DNA from: Saccoglossus kowalevskii
Lineage: Eukaryota > Hemichordata > Enteropneusta > Harrimaniidae
Reading direction: 5' to 3'
DNA length: 26,043 nucleotides
Assembly: GCF_000003605.2 (NCBI RefSeq)
Contig: NW_003126886.1
Location: forward strand, 36,167 to 62,209
Shown here: positions 4,021 through 26,043 of the stretch, piece by piece
How the letters are laid out: each line of letters opens with the position of its first letter
Position numbering within the stretch: position 1 is the first letter of the stretch
The notes under the pieces: generated by a model
Database searches by the model: none
What the model was told of the DNA's origin: nothing
Seen by the model: the letters and a program-made list of their open reading frames with translations, nothing else
Made by a program: the position numbers and the translations under genes

Positions 4021-4832
4021 CAATGTATCTCAGTCTACTTTTCTTTGCCTTGCTATTCATACCACACCTATCTTGGATGGTCCTCTGTCAGTGTTTATTA
4101 CATTTTTGAATTTTTGCACATGTATAATGCATGGACTCCAGTAGACAACTGTATCAGTTGGAAGCTAGGCTTTCTTAGTACACATGCCAATGTTTTCCAG
4201 AAATGCTCAAGTTCAGGTCAAGGTTATTTCAAGGTTTTTACGTTTTGTTGCTTTTATATGAACAGTAAGGTGGGGTGGGACTAAAATACCTTCCTAAAAT
4301 CTTCAAGTCAGGGTCATCACAAGGCCTCAGGTCAGGGTCATCACAAGGTCACATGTTGATTGCATGTGTGTTGGGGTCAGGAGGTTACTCCTTCATCAAG
4401 ATCTTTCAAGGAAAGGTCAACGTCATCTCGCATGTCACTTTGTCATATTGTCTAAATTTGTCATTCTCAATTCAGTCACATGTAACAAATAATGCAAATA
4501 TATATTCTGGTAATAGTGACAACAACTTAATGTTTCATCTTCAATTTCCTGTACCCCCACATCATCAATTATACATATCAATGCATTACATACACAAATA
4601 CATTTCCTCTTATGGGATATGCCCTTACAGTGACCATGGTTACAATTACTAAACTGTCATAGATTCCACTTCTCCTATCCACCTAGTAACTGCCACTGCC
4701 CTCTGTACTTGTCAATTACAGTGGATCTCTACAAAATGCAAGGTTGCTTGTCTTACAAACTACTAAGAATATGAAACTCATTTAGGCAGATTAGTCTGCA
4801 AAATTTTGATAGTTGTTTTGAAAGCAAACTTA
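4021..4832. other. Non-coding stretch with AGGTCA-like words
   Basis: Readings of 97 and 125 codons overlap here. The first starts inside the right end of the repeat element and the second spans a direct repeat, so both look accidental. Confidence 0.55.
4303..4350 (+). repeat. 24-bp direct tandem duplication
   Basis: Two adjacent copies of tca(a/g)gtcagggtcatcacaagg. This lies in a short stretch rich in AGGTCA-like words with no convincing gene. Confidence 0.8.
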
Positions 4833-5216
4833 GCTAGCTTTTATGTGATCAAAATAAAGAATGCCGAACTACGTAAATGTCTAAGTAGGTTCCGTCTGAG
4901 CAATCATAAACTAAAAATTGAAACAGGGATTTACACCAAACCAAAAACCGAAATATGAAATAGAATCTGCGAACTGTGTTCAAATAATAAAGTAAAAGAT
5001 GAGTACCATTTCATGATTGAATGCCCCTTTTATGAAAAATCGCGGAAAGCATTATTTGAAGAGACTACTAAGCACATTATAAATTTCATGAATATGAGTG
5101 ACTACAACAAATTTTTAAAATTAATGGGTGATACAAACCTGAATGTACAAATACCAGTTGCCCAATTTATCAAAAATAACACGAACCTTAGACAGCAACA
5201 TCTTCTGGCAAATTAA
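4833..5216 (+). pseudogene. Decayed C-terminal end of a non-LTR retrotransposon reverse transcriptase
   Basis: Reading codons from 4833 gives ...KNAELRKCLSRFRLSNHKL, then KIETGIYTKPKTEI, an in-frame TGA at 4956-4958, then NRICELCSNNKVKDEYHFMI and ECPFYEKSRKALF, ending with a stop at 5214. The L..FR.S.H.L.IE.GRY pattern and the C-x2-C-x9-H-x4-C zinc motif followed by P(F/Y)Y are typical of the ORF2 C-terminus of many invertebrate LINEs (Jockey/CR1-like groups). No endonuclease or polymerase core precedes it, so this is a 5'-truncated dead copy. The exact clade cannot be given. The open reading from 5013 is only the part after the broken codon. Confidence 0.8.
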
Positions 5217-9026: not shown

Positions 9027-11807
9027 ATATATGAATGGGTTATTTAGATACTTATGTATGGGTTCAGTGCTCTATAATTAGGGTACATGTATATATGGGT
9101 TCATTTCCCATATTACTTAGGTACATGTATGTATGGGATTAGTGCTCTATTAGGTATGTATGGGTTTCATTCCTCTATGATTTGGGTATATATGGGTTCA
9201 GTGCTTTATTATTGGGGTATGTATGGGTTCAGTGCTTTATTATTTGGGTATATATGGGCTCAGTGTGCTATTATTTGGGTATATATGGGTTCAGTGTGCT
9301 ATTATTTGAGTATGTATTGGTTCAGTGCTCTGTTATTTGGATATACATATGGGTTCAGTGTTCTATTATTTGGGTATGTATGGGTTCAGTGCTCTGTTAT
9401 TTGGGTATATATGGGTTCAGTGTTCTATTATTCGAGTATGTATTGGTTCAGTGTTCTATTATTCGAGTATGTATTGGTTCAGTGTTCTATTATTCGAGTA
9501 TGTATTGGTTCAGTGCTCTGTTATTTGGGTATGTATGGGTTCATTGCTCTGTTATTTGGGTATATATTTGTTCAGTGCTCTGTTATTTGGGTATGTATGG
9601 GTTCAGTGCTCTGTTATTTGGGTATATATTTGTTCAGTGCTCTGTTATTTGGGTATGTATGGGTTCAGTGCTCTATTATTCGAGTATGTATTGGTTCAGT
9701 GCTCTGTTATTTGGGTATGTATGGGTTCAGTGCTCTATTATTTGAGTATGTATTGGTTTAGTTCTCTGTTATTTGGGTATGTATGGGTTCAGTGCTCTGT
9801 TATTTGGGTATATATTTGTTCAGTGCTCTATTATTTGGGTATGTACATGTATGGGTTCAGTGCTCTGTTATTCGAGTATGTATGGGTTCAGTGTTCTATT
9901 ATTTGGGTATATATGAGTTCAGTGTTCTATTATTTGAGTATGTATTGGTTCAGTGCTCTGTTATTTGGGTATATATGGGTTCAGTGTTCTATTATTTGGG
10001 TATATATGAGTTCAGTGTTCTATTATTAGAGTATGTATTGGTTCAGTGCTCTGTTATTCGAGTATGTATGGGTTCAGTGTTCTATTATTTGGGTATATAT
10101 GAGTTCAGTGTTCTATTATTTGAGTATGTATTGGTTCAGTGCTCTGTTATTTGGGTGTATATATGGGTTCAGTGTTCTATTATTTGGGTATATATGGGTT
10201 CAGTGTTCTATCATTTGGGTATATATGAGTTTACTGTTCTATTATTTGGGTATGTATTGGTTCAGTGCTCTATTATTTGGGTATGTATTGGTTCAGTGCT
10301 CTGTTATTTGGGTATATATGGGTTCAGCGTTCTATTATTTGGGTATATATGGGTTCAGTGTTCTATTATTTGAGTATGTATTGGTTCAGTGCTCTGTTAT
10401 TTGGGTATGTATGGGTTCAGTGCTCTATTATTCGAGTATGTATTGGTTCAGTGCTCTGTTATTTGGGTATGTATGGGATGGGTTCAGTGCTCTGTTATTT
10501 GGGTATGTATGGGTTCAGTGTTCTATTATTTGAGTATGTATGGGTTCAGTGTTCTATTATTTGAGTATGTATTGGTTTAGTGCTCTGTTATTTGGGNNNN
10601 NNNNNNNNNNNNNNNNNNNNNNNNNNNNNNNNNNNNNNNNNNNNNNNNNNNNNNNNNNNNNNNNNNNNNNNNNNNNNNNNNNNNNNNNNNNNNNNNNNNN
10701 NNNNNNNNNNNNNNNNNNNNNNNNNNNNNNNNNNNNNNNNNNNNNNNNNNNNNNNNNNNNNNNNNNNNNNNNNNNNNNNNNNNNNNNNNNNNNNNNNNNN
10801 NNNNNNNNNNNNNNNNNNNNNNNNNNNNNNNNNNNNNNNNNNNNNNNNNNNNNNNNNNNNNNNNNNNNNNNNNNNNNNNNNNNNNNNNNNNNNNNNNNNN
10901 NNNNNNNNNNNNNNNNNNNNNNNNNNNNNNNNNNNNNNNNNNNNNNNNNNNNNNNNNNNNNNNNNNNNNNNNNNNNNNNNNNNNNNNNNNNNNNNNNNNN
11001 NNNNNNNNNNNNNNNNNNNNNNNNNNNNNNNNNNNNNNNNNNNNNNNNNNNNNNNNNNNNNNNNNNNNNNNNNNNNNNNNNNNNNNNNNNNNNNNNNNNN
11101 NNNNNNNNNNNNNNNNNNNNNNNNNNNNNNNNNNNNNNNNNNNNNNNNNNNNNNNNNNNNNNNNNNNNNNNNNNNNNNNNNNNNNNNNNNNNNNNNNNNN
11201 NNNNNNNNNNNNNNNNNNNNNNNNNNNNNNNNNNNNNNNNNNNNNNNNNNNNNNNNNNNNNNNNNNNNNNNNNNNNATTTGGGTATGTATGGGTTCAGTG
11301 CTCTATTATTTGAGTATGTATGGGTTCAGTGCTCTGTTATTCGAGTATGTATGGGTTCAGTGCTCTGTTATTCGAGTATGTATTGGTTCAGTGCTCTGTT
11401 ATTTGGGTATGTATTGGTTCAGTGCTCTGTTATTTGGGTATGTATGGGTTCAGTGCTCTATTATTCGAGTATGTATTGGTTCAGTGTTCTATTATTCGAG
11501 TATGTATTGGTTCAATGCTCTGTTATTTGGGTATGTATGGGTTCAGTGCTCTATTATTTGAGTATGTATGGGTTCAGTGCTCTATTATTTGAGTATGTAT
11601 TGGTTCAGTGCTCTGTTATTTGGGTATGTATGGGTTCAGTGCTCTGTTATTTGGGTATGTATGGGTTCAGTGCTCTATTATTTGAGTATGTATGGGTTCA
11701 GTGCTCTGTTATTCGAGTATGTATGGGTTCAGTGCTCTGTTATTCGAGTATGTATTGGTTCAGTGCTCTGTTATTTGGGTATGTATTGGTTCAGTGCTCT
11801 GTTATTT
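9027..11807 (+). repeat. Large 31-bp minisatellite, interrupted by an assembly gap
   Basis: Head-to-tail units of 31 bp, starting for example gtatgtatgggttcagtgct and continuing ctgttatttgg, with recurrent variants (tatatat for tatgtat, ttgg or tttg for tggg, gttct for gctct, attcgag for atttggg). Units are degenerate at the left border (9027-9190) and stop abruptly at tgttatttttcac on the right. About 67 units are visible and roughly 90 would fit if the gap is repeat. Because 31 is not divisible by 3 and the unit has no stop in any + frame, very long overlapping open readings appear in all three frames. They are by-products of the repeat, not genes. Confidence 0.97.
10597..11276. other. Assembly gap (680 N)
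   Basis: A continuous run of N inside the 31-bp minisatellite. The true repeat length here is unknown, and an exon hidden in it cannot be ruled out. Confidence 1.
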
Positions 11808-14200: not shown

Positions 14201-14627
14201 ATACAAGGATATTGGGATTATAGTACTATATCAAATTATTTCATTATTAGCGTGATTCATCTTTGTGTGTCTTATCGTAATTGAAGTCAATTTCACGGAT
14301 GCTGCACAATCAATCTGTGTCTAGCATCAGGTGTTCAGGTTGAATTGAGATATTATAAAATGATAGTTTTATTCAAGTATTATCAGATTTACACTCTAGG
14401 GATTCTGTCAGAGAGGAATCAGTCATGGTTATTATCGTCTAAACAATACCTATTGCAATGTGATCAAGCATGTATGCATAATTCAAATTGTGTGAATTAC
14501 TTATTTCTTGTTTCTACAAAGGGATAGATTCTTACCAATAATACATGTATTTATTACTGAATGCTAAAAACATGTTTGGTTGGCCTTGACTGTGGACAAT
14601 CTAGGGGTATTGATATGTGTTGTGTAG

Positions 14628-15597
14628 TGTTGTTATATTGGTTTCTATTGCCCGACCTGTTTTCGATTGTCTTTGGAGCAAGGACTCCTCCATTGTGATA
14701 TGGTTGCAGTGTTGTTATATTGGTTTCTATTGCCCGACCTGTTTTTGGTTGTCTTTGGAGCAAGGACTCCTCCATTGTGATATGGTTGTAGTGTTGTTAT
14801 ATTGGTTTCTATTGCCCGACCTGTTTTCGATTGTCTTTGAAGCAAGGACTCCCCAATTGTGATACGGTTGTAGTGTTGTTATATTGGTTTCTATTGCCCA
14901 ACCTGTTTTCGATTGTCTTTGAAGCAAGGACTCCCCAATTGTGATACGGTTGTAGTGTTGTTATATTGGTTTCTATTGCCCAACCTGTTTTCGATTGTCT
15001 TTGAAGCAAGGACTCCCCAATTGTGATACGGTTGTAGTGTTGTTATATTGGTTTCTATTGCCCGACCTGTTTTCGATTGTCTTTGGAGCAAGAACTCCCC
15101 AATAGTGATACGGTTGTAGTGTTGTTATATTGGTTTCTATTGCCTGACCTGTTTTCGATTGTCTTTGGAGCAAGAACTCCCCAATTGTGATACGGTTGTA
15201 GTGTTGTTATATTGGTTTCTATTGCCCGACCTGTTTTCGATTGTCTTTGGAGCAAGAACTCCCCAATAGTGATACGGTTGTAGTGTTGTTATATTGGTTT
15301 CTATTGCCCGACCTGTTTTCGATTGTCTTTGGAGCAAGAACTCCCCAATTGTGATACGGTTGTAGTGTTGTTATATTGGTTTCTATTGCCCGACCTGTTT
15401 TCGGTTGTCTTTGAAGCAGGGACTCCTCCATTGTGATATGGTTGTAGTGTTGTTATATTGGTTTCTATTGCCCGACCTGTTTTCGATTGTCTTTGAAGCA
15501 GGGACTCCCCAATTGTGATACGGTTGTAGTGTTGTTATATTGGTTTCTATTGCCCGACCTGTTTTCGGTTGTCTTTGAAGCAAGGACTCCTCCATTG
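14628..15597 (+). repeat. 82-bp minisatellite in the large intron
   Basis: About 12 tandem units, each starting tgttgttatattggtttcta and containing cccgacctgtttt, ttgtctttg(g/a)agca and actcc(t/c)c. Period 82 is confirmed by the first two unit starts at 14628 and 14710. Unit sub-types differ at aaggactcctccatt, aaggactccccaatt and aagaactccccaat(t/a), and neighbours tend to be alike, as expected from local unit duplication. Open readings of ~66 codons on the - strand at 82-bp steps are repeat artefacts. Confidence 0.97.
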
Positions 15598-22385: not shown

Positions 22386-23158
22386 AGCCACCATTTTTTG
22401 GACAAGAGTCTTGGGATAACATTTAATTACTGTACACTCTCTAGTATCTACTTAGCAACATTTGAAAAGTTCATCATGAATGAACACGAATTGTAGAAAA
22501 TGTGGTTCAAAATTATAGGGGTTATTAAAGTTTATTTCTGTTTAAGACTTTTTGTAAGATGTATATATGAGATGAATGTTTTATGCAGTGTGCACAGTCT
22601 TAAAATAGATGCTGTGTATCTTGTAACACTCTTATCATGTTTCATTTCTAATTTCTGTTTATGAGAATCTAAATTACATTAAGCAACATAATCTGACAAA
22701 CCTATGTGGAATTAAGGATAAACTGTATTTGTTGTAATCCCTGTAACTTATAAAGAATGTCTACAGAAACACTTTGTGTACCTGAAACACTGTAAACCAC
22801 ATTTATAAAGTCAATTATTTAGATGCATAATTGAGATTATTTCTAATTTTGCTAAATTGCCAATGGTCTAACTGCTTATTTAGGAAATACAAAGTAGCTA
22901 AATTTGCTACATTTTGTTACGTAGCTGTTACCCAAAAGTTACTTAAAATAAGTGTTTTACAGTAATCTTTGAAAAATGGTCACCATAGTAGAGCTTGCTG
23001 CTAGAAGAAATGTTTCCATGTATACCTCTATTTATTCACACTTTGTTGTTTATCAGATGTAAAGTCGATTCTTGACTGCGAGTTGGTAATAACTACCAAC
23101 ATGTACCACCATTAGGTTATTTTGTCTAGCTCTCCTTACTTGTATCTCTCATTTACAG

Positions 23159-23249
23159 GTTTAGAAGTTTAAACTATTCCACGATGGAAGTCACTACGTA
23201 CGCACTAAATTATTTGCTACTATACATAATTTGGTATCAGACTGGTTGA
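23159..23249 (+). pseudogene. Degenerate tandem copy of the 5' part of exon C (pseudo-exon)
   Basis: These 91 nt align to the first 104 nt of exon C (23284-23387) with one 13-nt deletion near the start and roughly four-fifths identity over the remaining ~70 nt; examples are tttaaactattc, cactacgt, actatacat and ttggtatcaga. The copy is preceded by its own pyrimidine-rich tract and a tttacag acceptor (ending 23158), as in the real exon, so the duplication unit was about 125 bp and included the splice acceptor. The 13-nt deletion shifts the frame, which then reads to a TGA at the end of the copy, and no donor follows. Inclusion would therefore truncate the protein in SH2. It is a dead duplicate lying directly before the functional acceptor. 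Confidence 0.85.
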
Positions 23250-23283: not shown

Positions 23284-23557
23284 GTTTGGAGGCGTAACTA
23301 AGAATTTTAAACTATTCTATGATGGGAAACACTACGTGGGCGATAAACGATTTGATACTATACATGATTTGGTATCAGATGGGTTGATAACCATGCATAT
23401 GGAATCTAAAGCGGCTGATTATATTGCGGTTATGGTATCAGAACCAATATATGAACACCATTCCAAGTATACAACGCTAGATGGAAGGAAAAGAAAACAA
23501 AGCGTAAAGAAAGAAGTGAAGATTTATGATGAGTTCAATAAAGCTAACATAACAGTG
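23284..23557 (+). CDS. CHN: Chimaerin exon C: C-terminal half of SH2 domain and start of linker
   Basis: This 274-nt exon is entered through a pyrimidine-rich ...tttcacag acceptor and left through gtaagt. The first base completes Arg, then 91 codons follow: [59 protein letters not shown], and a basic tract [13 protein letters not shown] ending NKANITV. The GKH.VG.KRF..IHDLV..GLIT segment is the second half of SH2 and matches the vertebrate proteins closely. The PIYEH.......TL segment is the start of the SH2-C1 linker. The lysine/arginine-rich stretch is more basic than I recall for the vertebrate linker. An apparent upstream Met at 23231 is an intron-derived reading and not a real start. A frameshifted tandem copy of the first ~100 nt lies just upstream. 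Confidence 0.97.
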
Positions 23558-24352: not shown

Positions 24353-24436
24353 AAAGATGCTCCAACTAAACCAGAACATATTGAAGAAATAGAAGAAATA
24401 GTTCCCTCGTCTTATGAAAAACCACATAAATTTAAG
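24353..24436 (+). CDS. CHN: Chimaerin exon D: linker and first zinc ligand of C1 domain
   Basis: This 84-nt exon, exactly 28 codons with phase 0 at both ends, follows a ttattatag acceptor. It encodes KDAPTKPEHIEEIEEIVP followed by SSYEKPHKFK. The end corresponds to the vertebrate YEK.HNFK. The His in PHKF is the first zinc ligand of the C1 consensus H-x12-C-x2-C-x13-C, and the spacing to the Cys in exon E is exactly 12. The linker is acidic (EHIEEIEEIV). The donor is AAG|GTATTT, weak at +5 (T instead of G). The last ~27 nt of this exon and its donor are the first unit of a tandem array that fills the start of the next intron. Confidence 0.93.
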
Positions 24437-24835
24437 GTATTTATTGCTATAGCTTCAAAATAATGTCCTCATTGCATGAGAAAGCACACAAATTTAAGGT
24501 ATTAATTGCTATAGCTTAAACATAATGCCTTTGTCTTATGAAAAACCACATAAATTTAAAGTATTTATTGCTATAGCTTCAAAATAATGTCCTCATTGCA
24601 TGAGAAACCACATCAATTTAAGGTATTTATTGCTATAGCTTAAAAATAATGTCCTCAATGCATGAGAAAGCACACAAATTTAAGGTATTTATTGCTATAG
24701 CTTCAAAATAATGTTCTCATCGCATGAGAAACCACGTAAAATTAAGGTATTTATTGCTAAAGCTTTAAAATAATCTTTGTTTTATGAAAAACCACATAAA
24801 TTTAAGGTATTCATTGTTATAACTTAAAAATAATA
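24410..24835 (+). repeat. ~62-bp tandem array grown from the exon D 3' end and splice donor
   Basis: The junction word ttaagg(t) recurs at 24432, 24494, 24555 (as ttaaag), 24618, 24680, 24742 and 24802, giving seven copies spaced 60-63 bp. The first is the true exon D end. Units carry the exon-like part (..tatgaaaaaccacataaattt or a variant with gcatgagaaagcacac) followed by GTATTTATTGCTATAGCTT from the intron start. Two sub-types roughly alternate, suggesting an older dimer. In-frame reading past the real donor meets a TAA at 24461-24463, so use of any later donor copy would give a premature stop. Confidence 0.9.
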
Positions 24836-25582: not shown

Positions 25583-25667
25583 GTTCATAATTTTGTTGGT
25601 CCAAACTGGTGTGAATATTGCGGTAATTTCATGTGGGGACTCATTGCACAGGGTGTCAAATGTTCAG
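25583..25667 (+). CDS. CHN: Chimaerin exon E: first half of C1 (diacylglycerol/phorbol-ester) domain
   Basis: This 85-nt exon follows a tttgtag acceptor and ends at CAG|GTGAGA. It encodes [16 protein letters not shown] then [12 protein letters not shown], plus one base (g) of a split codon, which is Asp in vertebrates. With the His in exon D this gives H-x12-C-x2-C-x13-C, the first four zinc ligands of a typical C1 domain. The GP.WC and GLIAQG residues are the two loops that form the diacylglycerol-binding groove, so ligand binding is expected. The remaining C-x2-C...H..C...C ligands must come from an exon beyond position 26043. The exon end chosen here is the only one giving canonical C1 spacing. 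The exon's 3' part and donor are repeated at least seven more times downstream, so alternative 3' ends are possible. Confidence 0.95.
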
Positions 25668-26043
25668 GTGAGAGATATTTCATGTGGGGACTCATAGCAC
25701 AGGGTGTCAAATGCTCAGGTGAGATATTTTATGTGGGGACTCATAGCACAGGGTGTCAAATGCTCAGGTGAGATATTTCATGTGGGGACTCATAGCACAG
25801 GATGTCAAATGTTCAGGTGAGATATTTCATGTGGGGACTCATTGCACAGGGGTCCAATGTTCAGGTGAGATATTTCATGTGGGGACTCATAGCACAGGGG
25901 TCCAATGTTCAGGTGAGATATTTCATGTGGGGACTCATAGCACAGGATGTCAAATGTTCAGGTGAGATATTTCATGTGGGGACTCATTGCACAGGGGTCC
26001 AATGTTCAGGTGAGATATTTCATGTGGGGACTCATAGCACAAG
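25629..26043 (+). repeat. 48-51-bp tandem array grown from the exon E 3' end and splice donor (continues past the window)
   Basis: The CAG|GTGAGA donor is present at 25668, 25719, 25768, 25817, 25865, 25913, 25962 and 26010, spaced 51, 49, 49, 48, 48, 49 and 48 bp. Each unit repeats coding sequence for [13 protein letters not shown] (tttcatgtggggactcat..gcacag) plus the gtgagatatttc intron start. Some units have aggggtcc in place of agggtgtca. The array starts within exon E and runs off the right edge. The first added unit is a multiple of three and stop-free; reading further in that frame meets TGA at 25769-25771. Confidence 0.93.

Follow-up and report, generated by a model that had tools for sequence, protein, structure and literature searches.

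The last 418 bases of the window (the whole stretch of DNA analysed here, 26,043 bp, contig C1941, positions 36167–62209) form a minisatellite in which the end of a C1-domain exon is repeated together with its splice donor and the first bases of the following intron. It is very probably a boundary-spanning minisatellite of the 'mirage' type, in which the first donor would be used and the further copies would leave with the intron.

The C1-exon array and the gene that carries it

The array is located at 25626–26043 on the + strand, contains eight full units plus 27 bp of a ninth one (26017–26043) and reaches the end of the window. The full units start at positions 25626, 25677, 25726, 25775, 25824, 25872, 25920 and 25969 and are, in this order, 51, 49, 49, 49, 48, 48, 49 and 48 bp long. 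Each comprises 41–42 nt of exon end and 7–9 nt of intron; the exon part measures 42 nt in five of the eight units and 41 nt in the other three, which have lost one exon base. TRF yielded a period of 49 bp with 8.5 copies, 94% match and a score of 716, as well as a three-unit period of 145 bp, and the substitutions and indels by which the units differ show the same three-unit pattern. The first copy runs on uninterrupted from the exon, while the later copies have drifted and all retain the donor, CAG|GTGAGA, which is unchanged in each of the eight full units. The exon parts end at 25667, 25718, 25767, 25816, 25864, 25912, 25961 and 26009; the donor coordinates given in the first-pass annotation mark the G that opens each GT. 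In the whole window, CAGGTGAGA was found eight times on the + strand, always inside the array, and never on the − strand, and the motif CAGGTRAG was found on neither strand beyond the copies of the array. Unit mapping, TRF and motif count thus bear out the earlier claim of at least eight tandem copies of exon end plus donor at intervals of 48–51 bp.

The array extends to the last base before a run of N at contig positions 62,210–94,716 (32.5 kb). Since the ninth unit enters this run, the array is open-ended and the eight full copies are the minimum visible. The next-to-last base of the window departs from the unit, which may reflect drift, the edge of the array or an error at the contig end. 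A DNA search of the genome (572 Mb, 4830 contigs) with the array as query returned a single location.

Three exons of a chimaerin-like gene lie on the + strand, and those for SH2 and C1 occur in the expected order. The first one (23284–23557, donor GTG|GTAAGT; phmmer and exon model) encodes the second part of an SH2 domain and the linker that follows. It matched N-chimerin (3cxl, E 1.4e-25) and beta2-chimaerin (1xa6, E 1.2e-23) and no other PDB chains at E values up to 1; in a Pfam search of this partial exon, the SH2 family was not reported. The linker exon KDAPTKPEHIEEIEEIVPSSYEKPHKFK (24353–24436) is defined by reading frame and splice signals and has a phase-0 donor, AAG|GTATTT. The third exon, carrying the first half of the C1 domain (25583–25667), has a phase-1 donor, CAG|GTGAGA, and is based on phmmer, exon model and C1 profile. 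The best PDB matches of its open reading frame are again 3cxl (E 7.5e-12) and 1xa6 (E 8.6e-12), over residues 1–28. When the exons are joined, the protein matches Pfam C1_1 with 35.4 bits (cut-off 26.5) from residue 117 and profile position 1. The profile thereby starts with HKFK, the last four residues of the linker exon, so that the two donor-side arrays described here both sit on exon ends inside one C1 domain. Unit mapping, the chimaerin matches from phmmer and the C1 profile support the view of the first-pass annotation that the repeated unit consists of exon end plus donor and belongs to a C1 exon.

A genome search with the joined exons gave ten matches, of which five are on C1941; the five elsewhere are limited to the C1 part with a small number of preceding residues, and the locus on C1941 is the sole chimaerin-like exon set among the ten. 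The Pfam C1_1 search of the genome gave at least 14 places. In six of 14 the match ends at profile position 32, in all six cases with a phase-1 G|GTRAG donor. Support for an exon end at 25667 thus comes from five further exons in addition to the sequence itself, and the shared splice position indicates that the C1 donor is old. At four of these five other exons (loci of about 3.1 kb each) a boundary array is absent, which shows that the intron does not need one. The second half of the C1 domain and the RhoGAP domain lie outside the window, and none of the 23 RhoGAP matches in the genome falls on C1941; the missing exons may be hidden in the downstream 32.5 kb run of N. The window yielded no matches when scanned with Rfam and for tRNAs, and Pfam searches of six other open reading frames of the window yielded no family above cut-off.

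Copied boundaries at the neighbouring exons and other repeats of the window

The first-pass annotation described an array of one exon only. This restriction does not hold, as the linker exon just upstream and two further genes show the same anatomy. The array of the linker exon (24409–24834, + strand), identified by TRF and unit mapping, lies on the donor side and contains seven copies of 62 bp. Five of the six donor-to-donor distances measure 62 bp and the other one 60 bp, with a higher-order period of 124 bp. The unit consists of the last ~28 nt of the exon, ending in TATGAAAAACCACATAAATTTAAG, and ~34 nt of intron. AAG|GT is retained in six of the seven copies, the remaining one reading AAA|GT. 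The mean pairwise identity of six copies is 82% in the exon part and 87% in the intron part; since both parts vary alike, there is no sign of selection holding the copied exon parts.

At the SH2 exon, the acceptor side is affected. A decayed extra copy of the exon start, including the acceptor (tttacag|GTTTAGAAG), is present at 23152–23249 (+ strand), 125 bp upstream of the start of the SH2 exon (acceptor to acceptor). Positions 23163–23249 match 23301–23387 with 82% over 87 nt, a 13-nt gap disrupts the frame and the protein match is 61%. Each of the three visible chimaerin exons has one copied boundary. When the 15 merged arrays of the window were rotated against the three donors, at least two donor-edge matches, i.e. 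array edges within the last 60 nt of an exon, occurred in 64 of 26,043 rotations; the choice of this test followed inspection of the data, and its outcome serves as a guide only. Based on this result and on the motif counts in the window, chance was rejected as the source of the boundary arrays.

Tandem arrays cover 23.5% of the window, compared to 3.0% of 105 kb of kinase loci. A 31-bp array of ~64 copies at 9127–11807 is split into two parts by a 680-base run of N (10597–11276). At 14623–15597, an 82-bp unit is repeated 11.9 times with 96% match, and on the − strand 77-codon open frames run in step with this unit. Adjoining open frames at 4767–5216 resemble the end of a retroelement protein by eye, with nothing above cut-off in Pfam. 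A 157-bp minisatellite of 3.6 copies (792–1351) is perhaps a member of a dispersed repeat family; by eye, its reverse complement resembles array units at L012 and L021 (C3691) and at L074 (C342).

Boundary arrays in other genes and other animals

Besides chimaerin, a boundary array was found at one of the 14 C1 places, in another C1 protein gene on contig C9 (L031, L032). There, an exon ending in LSRRMGKQGYQCR with the donor GAG|GTAAGA is followed by 55.5 copies of 33 bp (1831 bp), and the unit comprises the last 26 nt of the exon and 7 nt of intron. Both ends of this array are assembled, and the next run of N follows after ~1 kb of other sequence.

The array on C669 was reached via a genome-wide search for three CAGGTRAG motifs spaced by 20–50. 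The exon end ATCAGACTGTCCTTACAG|GTAAGCATG is followed by 15.5 copies of 43 bp, and the intron of 767 bp, which is free of N, holds the array and other intron sequence up to the next exon at L091:844. On C669, a boundary array is therefore seen complete, with an exon on either side. Joined together, the two upstream exons match Pfam Dynein_C with 29.3 bits (cut-off 25.7) at profile positions 26–88; the second of them alone reaches 18.3 bits and stays below the cut-off. The downstream exon matches with 38.8 bits at positions 100–148. The order of these Dynein_C exons fits a dynein heavy chain gene; a PDB search gave no match supporting dynein. Donor-side boundary arrays were hence observed in two introns of chimaerin, in the C9 gene and in the putative dynein heavy chain gene, and the acceptor side is represented by the one decayed copy only.

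How common such arrays are was addressed by a homology scan of 69 matches, comprising the 14 C1 places, 29 of 30 kinase loci (L050 was excluded) and 26 matches in 20 small kinase loci; the latter had only ~300–550 bp of flanking sequence, and the scan took 55 of 143 kinase matches. Words from the exon edge recurred outside the match in three of the 69 (chimaerin, C9 and L033); mid-match words, used as a control, did so in chimaerin and in two matches of L082. Clear boundary arrays are rare in this sample, with two among the 69 matches including chimaerin, or one among 68 without it. L033 (C3233, 999–1528) has two 265 bp copies, 98% identical, that reach into the 3' end of a kinase match; this end is only a possible splice boundary, and L033 was not counted as a boundary array. 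L023 was rejected with its array sitting within an intron, as was L078, where the array begins ~40 bp into the intron. At L086 (C217:53100–53700), an 18-bp array rich in CAGGTGAG-like motifs is open for 185 codons in one frame and could be either a coding repeat or a boundary array.

The triple-donor pattern gave 3186 matches in the genome, compared to 64 for the backward pattern, the latter being the complete set and lying on 15 contigs. A 50-fold enrichment was not accepted from these numbers, as the listed matches come from a few long arrays; on contigs C1–C1113, the matches listed fall on seven contigs and those of the backward control on two. An exon beside the array was proven on one of the seven (C669). 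No provable exon was found at the array edges of C131, C998 and C217, the array of C808 starts at a run of N, and the sequence read on C195 and C1113 stops short of the 5' array edges. Since the matches stem from few long arrays and an exon is proven on one contig in seven, we claim recurrence of boundary arrays and not a measured excess. A pattern of CAGGTAAG only gave 2215 matches on at least 14 contigs, compared to 248 matches in the control. Further CAGGTAAG arrays were observed on C1192, C998, C2790, C2797 and C2921, with a spacing of 52 bp common to the last four; on C1192, the pattern is repeated at intervals of 3.7 and 3.9 kb.

The first-pass annotation regarded an array that repeats the boundary itself as unusual. 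The type is already published as 'mirages' in amphioxus (PMC3087553, PMC3902484) and as boundary repeats in human genes (PMC2812944). Mirages are minisatellite-like tandem duplications of exon-intron boundaries, with units of 10–72 bp in Adh3 and of 150–160 bp in the globin genes BflGb6 and BflGb9; the BflGb6 mirage has six units in one haplotype and three in another, Adh3 is somatically unstable, and the data suggest that regular splicing is unaffected (PMC3087553). Further mirages occur in PGBD5 (60 and 108 bp) and troponin C (TnC) (PMC3902484). The arrays described here resemble these mirages in that the unit spans the boundary and measures tens of bp, most copies carry splice signals, donor and acceptor sides are affected and the copies are alike, as under concerted evolution (PMC3087553, PMC3902484). 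The assignment to mirages is based on a tandem unit that contains the boundary of a real exon (homology and splice signals), on splice signals kept in all eight full C1 units and in six of seven linker copies, and on occurrence in several genes on the donor side, with the acceptor side added via the single decayed copy.

Unlike in amphioxus mirages, two neighbouring introns of one gene are affected here, and the G + C content of the genome is 35.8% over 188 kb of sampled loci (29–34% in the window). Amphioxus (Branchiostoma) has a G + C content of ~41%, and the genome with the boundary arrays is therefore probably not amphioxus. A literature search, with most subscription journals outside its coverage, found no mirages under that name beyond amphioxus among the papers listed. 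Taken together, two neighbouring introns and at least two further genes in a genome that is probably not amphioxus suggest that mirages extend beyond the range described for them. The recurrence and the probable new host group are of some evolutionary interest, while the kind itself is known.

In humans, the minisatellite of IFI6 (6-16), with a unit length of reportedly 12 bp, is likewise a tandem repeat with donor sites at an exon end. It provides several donors, of which two downstream ones are reported to be used (PMC4526556, citing Turri et al. 1995). In contrast to these reported downstream repeats, the downstream donors of chimaerin are mostly frame-breaking or stopped according to frame analysis. 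Human segmental-duplication genes also have minisatellites at exon-intron boundaries; internal tandem repeats at these positions are associated with 27 intron modifications and altered splicing (PMC2812944). Variation in the human repeats changes structure and splicing of recent paralogues, whereas the chimaerin array belongs to a single-place gene. Minisatellite-like repeats together with exon duplications occur in earthworm metallothionein genes, where they are not described as spanning a boundary (PMC12783039).

Predicted donor use and alternative explanations

Frame analysis was used to predict what each donor would do. Donor 1 (exon end 25667) gives the C1 domain. Donor 2 (25718) adds 51 nt in frame, corresponding to 17 extra residues inside C1, in which a second copy of the 13-residue exon-end peptide comes after GERY; from the zinc-ligand positions of C1 domains, we take this insertion to fall between zinc-binding cysteines. 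Donor 3 shifts the frame and donors 4–8 read into a stop, leaving donors 1 and 2 as the only ones in frame without a stop. The battery of strong donors described by the first-pass annotation was confirmed: all eight are identical, with a U1 pairing of −11.1 kcal/mol each, compared to −11.6 kcal/mol for the full consensus. Given this equal strength, competition among the donors is possible. Boundary minisatellites offer a naturally occurring set of identical donors that compete in an almost unchanging context, on which the choice made in exon definition could be measured.

Judged from sequence features, donor 1 is most likely used, paired with the acceptor of its own exon, and the other copies are removed as intron. 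Such an array would arise through head-to-tail duplication of a segment with the C1 exon end, the donor and the first intron bases, followed by an increase in copies, presumably via slippage or unequal exchange. The pyrimidine-rich acceptor before 25583 would let exon definition pick the first donor, and the later copies would be spliced away as part of the intron. Growth in the direction of the intron would be tolerated, as it leaves an intact exon with one donor upstream in every case; no benefit for the gene need be assumed, and the effect of the array is most likely neutral. Inside an exon, a unit of 43, 49 or 62 bp would cause a frameshift, unlike one of 33, 48 or 51 bp. A wider reading, which we offer tentatively and rate as somewhat short of probable, is that an animal genome outside amphioxus repeatedly makes minisatellites of exon end plus donor, in what is perhaps the only growth direction that spares the exon. 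The copies would then be spare donors and a nearby store of frame-breaking variants that could be converted into the exon.

It is unlikely that the array is instead a working set of alternative donors of the IFI6 type, in which downstream donors are used, longer or NMD-targeted messages are made and array length tunes chimaerin output. The eight identical strong donors and the open, in-frame product of donor 2 speak for this, but that product inserts 17 residues into C1, donors 3–8 lead to a frameshift or a stop, and all six linker-array copies that were read on reach a stop in the copied intron. Amphioxus arrays, moreover, are reported to leave regular splicing intact (PMC3087553). Least probable of all is that the copies act as recursive or nested splice sites, with stepwise removal of the array, or give birth to an intron or exon when a copy becomes a new exon. 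Every unit has an AG and a GT, boundary minisatellites have been proposed as a route to new introns, with intron birth suggested for amphioxus globins (PMC3087553), and new introns from boundary repeats are described in human duplicated genes (PMC2812944). Yet the pyrimidine content before each CAG|GT of the array is 41–47%, compared to 71–82% before the acceptors of the three exons, which makes recursive splicing unlikely, and three of the eight units are short of one exon base.

Two further readings question the locus itself and are both very improbable. The slightly less improbable one takes it as a decayed chimaerin fragment, whose array is without consequence for any message. The lack of RhoGAP matches on C1941 (0 of 23) and the decayed SH2 exon start point in this direction; against it stand three open exons with good splice signals and strong chimaerin similarity, the uniqueness of the set among the ten genome matches and the 32.5 kb run of N downstream. 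An assembly artefact, i.e. a single boundary falsely expanded or copies stacked at the contig end, would agree with the end of the array at a run of N and with a second such run inside another array of the window, but substitutions and indels distinguish the units in a three-unit pattern, and complete arrays are present in two other genes. An assembly error would more probably have collapsed the array, leaving too few copies, than expanded it.
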